Assembly: GCF_004023665.1 (NCBI RefSeq)
Contig: NZ_SAUF01000001.1
Span: 978,501-1,042,500 of the forward strand
Length of the DNA: 64,000 nt
Direction of reading: 5' to 3'
Source of the DNA: Afifella aestuarii
GTDB taxonomy: Bacteria > Pseudomonadota > Alphaproteobacteria > Rhizobiales > Afifellaceae
Part shown: piece after piece, positions 29,946 through 31,825 of the stretch
Layout of the letters: each line of letters starts with the position of its first letter
Position numbering within the stretch: position 1 is the stretch's first letter
The notes under the pieces: generated by a model
Database searches by the model: none
Seen by the model: the letters and a program-made list of their open reading frames with translations, nothing else
Told to the model about the DNA's origin: nothing
Program-made: the position numbers and the translations under genes

Positions 29946-30710
29946 TCAGGGCGTGAGCTTGTGTCGGGCGAGTCGCTCGTAGAGCGGCAATGCCTCGGCC
30001 GCCACTTCCTTGAGCCCGTCATCTTCCAACTCCGGCAGCGGCGCCGGCGGCTGAAAGCCCGTCGAGCGATGCACTGCATCGTACCAATGCGCGGCCCAAA
30101 CGCCGTCGCTGTCGCGGGGACCGGCCGGCCAGGCGAGCATTGCCGGAGAAAAATCGATCTCGAGAGCCGCGCAAAGGGCACGCAGCATCGCTTCCGGATT
30201 TGCGAGAAGATCGTCGGCGTCGACGACCGGAGGGATCCTTCCGCCCAATTCTGTCGCCAGGTGAAAAAGCTCATCCTGCTCGACGAATCCGATATCTGAA
30301 AGGCTCGGGCCAGCGCGCTTGCGGGCATAGGAAGCGAGCACGCGCGCCGGATGACGGATCAGGAACGCGTGGCGACAGCTGCGCATCCAATCGCGGCCGA
30401 TCTCCGCGATCATGTGGTGCGTCATGTGCTTCTGGTAGAAGATACGGCTGCCAAACGGCGGCGCGCCCGCGAGGCGTTCCGCCACCTTTTGCCAATCGGC
30501 TTCATGGGCGGCACAGATTTCCTCGCGCATCGGATGATCGATGCCGGTCACCTTCAGCCATGCCGCATAGAACGGCTCGTCCCATACTTCGGTGTCGGGA
30601 CGGTTTTCGAAGGCGCGCATCATCGCGGTCGAGATGTTGCGCGGGCCGGACCACATGGCGATGCGGATCGTCTCGTCGCTCTTCGCGGGCGAGGGTCTCT
30701 CAAACGCCAT
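29946..30710 (-). CDS. Sulfotransferase-like (P-loop) family protein
   Basis: 254 residues. IAMWSGPRNISTAMMRAFE is the P-loop/PAPS-binding region of sulfotransferase-fold proteins, and HAFLIRHPARVLASYARKR matches the second nucleotide-binding segment. The ATG at 30708-30710 is preferred; an in-frame extension would cross the tRNA-like gene upstream. Relatives often sit beside a class IV aminotransferase, as here. The biological substrate is not known to me. Confidence 0.8.
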   Translation of the reverse strand: MAFERPSPAKSDETIRIAMWSGPRNISTAMMRAFENRPDTEVWDEPFYAAWLKVTGIDHPMREEICAAHEADWQKVAERLAGAPPFGSRIFYQKHMTHHMIAEIGRDWMRSCRHAFLIRHPARVLASYARKRAGPSLSDIGFVEQDELFHLATELGGRIPPVVDADDLLANPEAMLRALCAALEIDFSPAMLAWPAGPRDSDGVWAAHWYDAVHRSTGFQPPAPLPELEDDGLKEVAAEALPLYERLARHKLTP

Positions 30711-30735
30711 CACGGCACCTGGAATGCTGGAGAAA

Positions 30736-30812
30736 TGGAGACCTGACCGCGGACTCGAACCGCAGATATTTGACGCTGCACCGCCAACGGGTACCCGTTC
30801 CCCCATCAGGTC
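30736..30812 (-). tRNA. Irregular tRNA-like gene (Cys-type features)
   Basis: 77 bases. The 7-bp acceptor arms (GACCTGA / TCAGGTC) pair perfectly and are followed by T73 and an encoded CCA. The T-arm has loop TTCGAGT and a 5-bp stem, and the D-arm is GGG/CCC with a normal GGG-bearing loop. Two oddities stand out: the anticodon arm gives TTGGC/GTCAA with an eight-base loop (or a 6-bp stem with a six-base loop that places GCA in anticodon position), and one extra G lies between T-stem and acceptor. GCA plus T73 would point to cysteine. It may be a degenerate or specialised tRNA. Confidence 0.5.
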
Positions 30813-30898
30813 GATGAGAGATTAGGCGAACACGAATGCGTGAGAAAACCATCACGTGCCGATGTGGTTAAAATCTTAGTCTTTGCCTTAGAGAGGGC

Positions 30899-31825
30899 TC
30901 AAGACAAGGGTGTGGCGAAGGCGCGGATGCGCTCGCGGTAGAGTTGCGTCAGCCGCGGCAAGAGCTTCGGCCTGTCGGGATGAAGCGTGCCGATCATCCG
31001 TCCGTCGACGGAGCGGACCGGGACCAGCCCGGCGAACGTGCCTGTGATAAAGGCCTCGTCGGCCCCATAGACGTCGGTCAGCGAAAAGCGCCTTTCATGT
31101 GCCGGGATGCCGGCCTCTCGGGCGGCTTTCAGCACCTGTCCGCGGGTGACTCCGCCGAGGCAGTAATCGCCCGTCGAGGTCCAGACCTCGCCGTTGCGGA
31201 CGATGAAGAAATGCGTGGAATTGCAGGTGGCGACAAAGCCTGCCGGGTCGAGCATCAGCCCTTCATCCGCGCCGGCCTTGGCGGCTTGAATGCATGCAAG
31301 GATGCAGTTGAGCTTGGAATGGGAATTGATCTTCTGGTCCTGCTCGGCAGGCCCCGTGCGCCGCACATGAACGGTGAAAAGCGTGACGCCTTCGCCTGCG
31401 ATTTCAGGCTTCGGGTTTTTGTATTCGGGAATGACGACGATCGTGGGTGCGCCGATCGTCATGCGCGGATCCTGATAAGGGGTGCGCTTCACGCCGCGCG
31501 TGATCATCAGGCGCACATGCACGCCGTCGCGCATGTCGTTGGCGGCGAGGCATTCCATCACCCGGGCGGTGAGGCCGGCGCGATCGAGCCCGATATCCAT
31601 GTCGAGCGCCGCAGCGCCCTCAAACAGGCGGTCGAGATGCTCGTCGAGGAAGGCGATGCCCCCGTCGGTGACGCGCAGGCCTTCCCAGACGCCGTCGCCC
31701 AGGATGAAACCGGAATCGAAGACGGAGACGACCGCCTTGTCTCGCGGCAAGAGTTCGCCGTTGACCGAGATCAGGATCTCGGCGTTGCGCGGATCGTCTT
31801 CGTATTCGTGGGTGCCTGTCGCCAT
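30899..31825 (-). CDS. Class IV PLP aminotransferase (branched-chain/D-amino acid type)
   Basis: 308 residues of the BCAA aminotransferase/D-amino acid aminotransferase/4-amino-4-deoxychorismate lyase fold. Features are SVFDSGFILGDGVWEGLR, the SHSKLNCILACIQAAKAGADEGLMLD region with the likely PLP Lys, and GVTRGQVLKAAREAGI. Substrate choice among branched-chain, D-amino and other acids cannot be settled. It lies between sciP and the tRNA-like gene on the minus strand. Confidence 0.87.
   Translation of the reverse strand: MATGTHEYEDDPRNAEILISVNGELLPRDKAVVSVFDSGFILGDGVWEGLRVTDGGIAFLDEHLDRLFEGAAALDMDIGLDRAGLTARVMECLAANDMRDGVHVRLMITRGVKRTPYQDPRMTIGAPTIVVIPEYKNPKPEIAGEGVTLFTVHVRRTGPAEQDQKINSHSKLNCILACIQAAKAGADEGLMLDPAGFVATCNSTHFFIVRNGEVWTSTGDYCLGGVTRGQVLKAAREAGIPAHERRFSLTDVYGADEAFITGTFAGLVPVRSVDGRMIGTLHPDRPKLLPRLTQLYRERIRAFATPLS

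Follow-up and report, generated by a model that had tools for sequence, protein, structure and literature searches.

The window, a 64-kb stretch of Afifella aestuarii DNA, carries on its minus strand (30736..30812) a 77-nt gene with an encoded CCA end that, judged by its sequence and those of its relatives, is a real tRNA-like gene, neither decay nor a chance fold. We consider it likely, with a probability of roughly 0.6, that this gene encodes a functional, non-decoding, trans-acting RNA that derives from tRNA-Cys and is added to the ordinary one. To our knowledge, few bacterial tRNAs with a role outside translation are known; the family described below makes it possible to test which process requires a cysteine tRNA that apparently cannot decode, and its product, if charged, would point to a new tRNA-dependent cysteine pathway and, if not, to a tRNA-derived regulator.

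Form of the gene and its relation to tRNA-Cys

ARAGORN calls a tRNA of unknown type at coordinates identical to these (30736–30812, minus strand), and the covariance family supports the same element; the individual arms were assigned from the sequence and from relatives or the loop census as well. The acceptor stem consists of seven perfect pairs between GACCTGA (30806..30812) and TCAGGTC (30740..30746), followed by the discriminator T73 and the encoded CCA (30736..30739). The D arm reads GGG-GAACGGGTA-CCC (30789..30803), the anticodon arm (30770..30787) has a 6-bp stem TTGGCG/CGTCAA around the six-base loop GTGCAG (30776..30781, with GCA at 30777–30779), and the T arm (30747..30765) has a 6-bp stem CTGCGG/CCGCGG with the loop TTCGAGT. 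A sequence-only reading of the window had described a 77-base element with this acceptor pairing, T-loop, T73 and CCA, all of which we find in place.

The element shares U73 and CCA with canonical tRNA-Cys; in place of the canonical 7-base loop on a 5-bp anticodon stem it has a six-base loop, and in place of a 7/5 acceptor–T stack and an Rfam tRNA match it has a 7/6 stack and no such match. Rfam covariance models give no match to the element at gathering score, the element is absent from the 42 Rfam tRNA matches of the genome, and in the 251 bases around it (30650–30900) a search up to E = 10 yields neither a tRNA nor a tRNA-Sec match, just one hit of an unrelated snoRNA model to the opposite strand (E = 0.71). 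The minimum-energy fold of the single sequence from the window is not a cloverleaf and is just slightly better than shuffles (z = −1.62; 11/200 shuffles equally good), and the same folding program gives no cloverleaf for an ordinary tRNA-Cys either. Comparison with the tRNAs of the same genome (the best 30 of 42 matches, giving 35 ARAGORN records and 31 distinct genes) places tRNA-Cys closest to the element, with a score of 59 against 39 for the next, and in the alignment of the two the anticodon arm of the element is longer by one base and its T stem by one base pair. The Cys-type features noted earlier (GCA together with T73) are present, and this closest match supports a Cys-type origin.

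Selection on the structure is observed among relatives. Covariance model R1, built on three Afifella sequences, gave matches in 28/397 genomes of the order at E ≤ 1e-9 (one of them, in G052, being an ordinary tRNA-Cys), and model R2 was built from 23 of these matches. Applied to 82 loci known to hold a copy (lowest scorers included; 70 distinct sequences), R2 gives an alignment in which 99.2% of 1481 cells hold standard pairs and 14 of the 22 pairs change on both sides among the distinct sequences. Compensatory cells number 139, compared with 30.4 in shuffles (0/500 reach the observed value) and 6–20 in slid controls, a count that is biased upward in that the alignment is fitted to the model structure and the shuffles ignore relatedness. 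Within Afifella alone (three distinct sequences) covariation does not go beyond shuffles (148/500 reach it); the RNA of carrier G004 differs from that of the window at seven positions, comprising acceptor pair 2 (A-U to G-C), a G-U to G-C change, a C-G to U-G change and three loop changes. Across 1500 random pairs drawn from 60 f35-type copies, identity is 91.5% in the RNA, 55.8% in the 60 bases upstream, 33.3% from −95 to −61 and 39.7% in the 60 bases downstream. Uncompensated broken pairs, which define a tRNA pseudogene, are not what these relatives display (99.2% of cells paired), and we regard the pseudogene reading as ruled out by the covariation. The family instead has what marks a pseudo-tRNA, a tRNA fold conserved despite altered or lost decoding elements, and the option of a non-decoding tRNA mimic, one of several raised from the sequence alone, is supported.

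The relatives also settle the shape of the anticodon arm, previously left as either a 5-bp stem with an eight-base loop or a 6-bp stem with a six-base loop; the latter is the rule, with the sixth pair standard in 62/70 distinct sequences (changed on both sides in 26) and non-standard in eight, with double changes in all six pairs of the stem, and with a six-base loop in 81/82 copies. The loops are GTGCAT (30 copies), GTGCAA (27), GGGAAC (11), ATGCAT (5), GTGCAG, CAGCAA and ATGCAA (2 each), CGGCAG and ATGAAA (1 each), and the seven-base CCGCAAG of G097. GCA is thus present in 70/82 loops and GAA in the other 12, with the first (G) and third (A) bases of the triplet invariant, and a T occupies the place equivalent to U33 in 67/82. 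The 11 GGGAAC copies are all 11 copies of genus g39 in the set; viewed by eye, these sequences may form a 7–8-bp stem capped by a GGAA tetraloop on a G-C closing pair, and the minimum-energy fold of one g39 copy differs from this arrangement. A suppressor tRNA, proposed among the earlier options, was rejected on two grounds, as GCA does not correspond to any stop codon and genus g39 as a whole has an altered loop (GGGAAC in 11/11 copies read). The combination of GCA with T73 in the window copy, together with the frequent T at the U33 place, would suit a variant tRNA-Cys that still decodes, as a second isoacceptor or as a frameshift or recoding tRNA; the six-base loop in 81/82 copies and the GGGAAC loop of g39 speak against such a tRNA, which we judge improbable.

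Elsewhere in the fold, the three pairs of the D arm are kept in 70/70 distinct relatives. The D-loop GG is present in 22/22 copies outside the f35 type compared with 3/60 within it, and with 57/60 f35-type D loops lacking it, conservation of the tRNA elbow is not general. T73 is invariant in the 70 distinct relatives, 81/82 copies end in CCA (L194 101–177, the exception, terminates in CTCTA rather than CTCCA), and there is little variation at the top of the acceptor stem, G1:C72, C3:G70 and C4:G69 being invariant. The 13-pair stack that had been proposed on the basis of one extra G holds as 7+6 in the clade of the window, the sixth T-stem pair occurring in 11/70 distinct sequences (CG in five, GC in three, UA in three, none broken); the other 59 have a T stem of five pairs and hence the ordinary 7/5 arrangement. 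A stack longer than 7/5 in these 11 is a further point against a decoding tRNA. Bacterial tRNA-Sec, to which this stack had been linked, resembles the element in stack length for that subset of the family only; the element is 7/6 and not 8/5, its variable region is short where tRNA-Sec has a long arm, its anticodon triplet is not UCA, and Rfam finds no tRNA-Sec match up to E = 10. The selenocysteine link was accordingly dropped.

Distribution and the coexisting tRNA-Cys

By BLAST the element is found in 4/61 genomes, all from the genus of the window and its own genome among them, and in 4/11 genomes of the family. The covariance model reaches farther: R2 scores family members at 73–93 bits compared with ~63–73 for 74-nt tRNA-Cys-type matches, and the lowest members (G351 and G839, 73 bits) touch the latter range, yet are 77 nt long with the loop of the family. 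At E ≤ 1e-14, carriers amount to 40/397 genomes of the order in 9/141 genera and five families (four in f1 g1, two in f1 g4, 13 in f34 g39, four in f34 g121, 15 in f35, and one each in f14 and f52), a lower bound given that member G351 falls just under the cut. The RNA is present in 13/13 genomes of g39 and in 112/117 species genomes of genus g40 (E ≤ 1e-13; genomes drawn from a larger group). The g40 genomes without it (G782, G816, G826, G864 and G884) are among the smaller ones, at 4.3–6.7 Mb compared with 4.3–10.4 Mb for the genus, and the G+C content of g40 is 0.63–0.65 (five stretches of 20 kb or 14 kb). The core of Br-REP1, a repeat reported for Bradyrhizobium (PMC5082802), had no match in 232 loci, and that name for g40 is a guess. 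Among the matches listed for 385 genomes of the class, inspected by eye under stricter filters, just G000 and G044 from the window's own order exceed 73 bits, the remainder being 74 nt long (one of 75), and a distant member with a tRNA-Cys-like score could stay hidden in this class-wide search.

Family members range from 73 to 78 nt and ARAGORN leaves most of them untyped; Rfam matched 0/9 family copies up to E = 1, and in one of these loci it did detect an ordinary tRNA. We recognized no report of the family in the open-access literature: it is not described in the available portions of PMC7590224, PMC12037408, PMC8762117, PMC8124441, PMC5082802 and PMC2873474, and a term search of PMC5424206 returned nothing on it.

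The family RNA coexists with an ordinary-type tRNA-Cys. In 34/35 carriers a single family member is accompanied by a single 74-nt tRNA-Cys-type match (which ARAGORN types as tRNA-Cys just in carriers G000 and G044), so the family RNA adds to that gene and does not replace it; the presence of this separate match also weighs against a decoding role for the family RNA. Under laxer filters the non-carriers G002, G005, G006, G009, G023, G782, G826, G864 and G884 have one match each, G816 has two and G008 none, and all 11, like the lower match in G044, are called tRNA-Cys with GCA by ARAGORN. The exception among carriers is G097, an 84%-complete assembly with two family members (L143, 6582–6659; L149, 4464–4541) and no other tRNA-Cys match. 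ARAGORN types both copies as tRNA-Cys, and the one in the alignment has the seven-base loop; the pair could be an ancestral, still-decoding form, which would favor the decoding variant, or could reflect a gap in the assembly.

Each genome has a single CysRS: one strong full-length match was found in 33/33 genomes, carriers and non-carriers alike, and weaker partial matches were taken for other class I synthetases. A second CysRS as partner of the family RNA was rejected, none being found in the 33.

Possible roles and comparison with known systems

The steps that we infer for the RNA are its transcription, processing, charging and use outside translation. The family would have arisen from tRNA-Cys with the loss of decoding and is probably transcribed on its own; the RNA would be trimmed and CCA-ended like a tRNA and would act in trans via its acceptor arm (U73-CCA, G1:C72, C3:G70 and C4:G69); in lineages that keep GCA it would probably be charged by the only CysRS of the cell, and the cysteine it carries would be used, or sensed, off the ribosome. 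With an acceptor end in which U73 never varies and a GCA that is retained in the majority of copies, charging with cysteine is plausible for most clades. Judging by studies of the E. coli enzyme, an anticodon change from GCA to GAA should harm charging by CysRS; with GAA instead of GCA in 12/82 copies charging cannot be general, and the sequences of the g39 clade argue that charging by CysRS is not the selected trait everywhere.

A more specific form of the reading, which we put forward tentatively and at rather less than even odds, would make the RNA a dedicated cysteine carrier: a paralogue freed from decoding that brings cysteine, or a charging signal, to a non-ribosomal pathway, is expressed under a regulated promoter that belongs to it and has become fixed in several genera. 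Among known systems, the staphylococcal cell-wall tRNA-Gly supplies amino acids to a pathway off the ribosome, and its transferases are known. The likeness lies in a dedicated tRNA off translation; the family described here is a putative case. Pseudo-tRNAs are mentioned in connection with peptidoglycan synthesis in PMC3399842.

The loss of the anticodon in g39 (11/11 copies read, in a genus with the RNA in 13/13 genomes) suits an uncharged regulatory mimic or decoy that would bind CysRS, RNase P, EF-Tu or a stringent-response factor, or would pair with mRNAs, within a regulated response, and would never be aminoacylated in use. An upstream box that sets the family apart from the ordinary tRNA genes of the genome (see below) is in keeping with such a mimic, as is the proposal, in PMC3399842, that a Bacillus cereus pseudo-tRNA is an element of a regulatory RNA. 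The invariant U73, the CCA in 81/82 copies, the near-constant acceptor top and the GCA in 70/82 copies exceed what a mere scaffold needs, and we give an uncharged mimic odds close to those of the cysteine carrier.

By analogy, the pseudo-tRNA of B. cereus is the nearest functional parallel to the proposed non-decoding RNA, and selC* tRNA-Cys the nearest in identity. The former (tRNA-Other), as presented in PMC3399842, is a tRNA-like gene with no function in translation and with regulated expression; the apparent lack of a translational role, deduced from sequence in the present case, is the shared feature. It differs in having a Trp-type anticodon, in being part of a longer RNA and in occurring in some bacilli, whereas the present family is Cys-derived, has an altered loop length and belongs to one alphaproteobacterial order. 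The selC* tRNA-Cys species (Mukai et al, 2017; as given in PMC7609411) are non-canonical tRNA-Cys with U73, an anticodon that is either GCA or UCA, and an acceptor branch that departs from the usual one, and so resemble the element in U73, in GCA and in the altered branch. Their stack is 8/4 with a bulged A51a, their variable arm is longer, and they come from anaerobes, partly together with a CysRS* or SelB* of their own, whereas the present family is 7/6 or 7/5 with a short variable region; the 8/4 stack, the bulge and the longer arm are all missing from the element, and in place of the CysRS*-like second synthetase of some selC* carriers there is one CysRS in 33/33 genomes. Allo-tRNAs, which occur in bacteria including Proteobacteria and whose stem lengths are likewise unusual (PMC7609411), resemble the element in that respect; their Ser identity, their longer variable arm and their 12-pair branch (8/4 or 9/3), as described there, are all absent from the element.

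Gene neighborhoods and upstream sequences

In the window the RNA gene lies between two open reading frames of the same strand, an upstream gene (30899..31825, minus) that we take to be branched-chain aminotransferase-like and a downstream gene (29946..30710, minus) that we take to be sulfotransferase-like, a name it had also been given in the earlier reading. Conservation beside this pair, suggested in that reading as a check, holds within Afifella (4/5 genomes compared, the RNA lying between the two genes in all four carriers) and fails beyond it, other clades having other neighbors. In the fifth genome (G002) a gap of ~100 bases without the element separates the two genes; an Afifella genome lacking the RNA indicates that it is not indispensable in the genus. 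In G007, G010 and several others the two genes abut, and in some outgroups a different gene lies ahead of the sulfotransferase (all three arrangements judged by eye). The sulfotransferase frame is open back across the tRNA-like gene to an ATG at 30806, as it is in G004, L139 and L141, and gene calls may consequently carry a false N-terminal extension (29946–30806, minus).

No neighbor gene is common to all clades. One adjacent gene, presumably methyltransferase-like, is constant in 37/37 f35-type loci, of which 13 have a gene that we take to be carB within 1.5 kb; a presumed gyrA lies beside the RNA in 12/13 g39 loci; presumed carB and greA genes adjoin it in three f34 g121 stretches; and other genes do so in f1 g4, f14 and f52. 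The carB–greA pair is flanked oppositely in two groups, with the RNA upstream of carB in f35 (L132, L134 and L148) and downstream of greA in f34 g121 (L139–L141). A general role as a cis-element of the sulfotransferase or as a carB leader was rejected, since the neighbors vary by clade and, for carB, other genes intervene in some g40 loci.

The patchy presence of the RNA in five families, the change of neighbors from clade to clade and its absence from G002 are what a decaying tRNA-Cys duplicate or the remnant of a mobile-element attachment site might leave behind. Set against this are the double changes in 14/22 pairs, near-universal presence in genera g40 and g39, and the constant adjacent gene of the 37 f35-type loci with flanks near saturation, and we find such an origin scarcely credible. 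Searches of plasmids (three queries), phages (one query) and viral contigs (one exact g40/g39-type pattern) gave no copy, which likewise opposes a remnant and led us to discard a mobile or phage origin.

Sequences upstream of the RNA are conserved in part. The consensus of 60 f35-type copies has GTTA-N4-TAA at −59 to −49 and ATGAT at −11 to −7, and the former box, at about −60 to −49, is also found in most g39 loci and in f1 g4. In a relaxed form (TTA[AG]N2-3TWA starting between −66 and −46) it is present in 64/82 copies compared with 34/38000 random 30-base windows, a contrast flattered by the mostly coding nature of the random windows and by the relatedness of the copies. TTAA occurs within 75 bases upstream of 0/31 ordinary tRNA genes of the genome, and the box may be the binding site of a regulator. 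It fails in 18/82 copies. Among these are the three from Afifella, in which TTAACC is seen by eye at about the distance of the box; in the window this possible counterpart of the conserved TTA box lies at −59 to −54 (30866..30871, minus), where the distance fits and the full two-part box fails. A perfect palindrome of the upstream box does not occur in the 64-kb window, and a simple sigma-70 scan gave no promoter at the window copy, where CCTAAT (30821..30826, minus) was picked out by eye as a possible −10 element with no match to the sigma-70 consensus.

Two further features were noted by eye. A short palindrome of the form TCAC...GTGA lies upstream of the RNA in several families (L070, L071, L072 and L181, and farther away in L076), in the window as CACGCATTCGTG at −30 to −19 (30831..30842, minus). 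Several g39 copies have a hairpin followed by a run of T just 3′ of the RNA.
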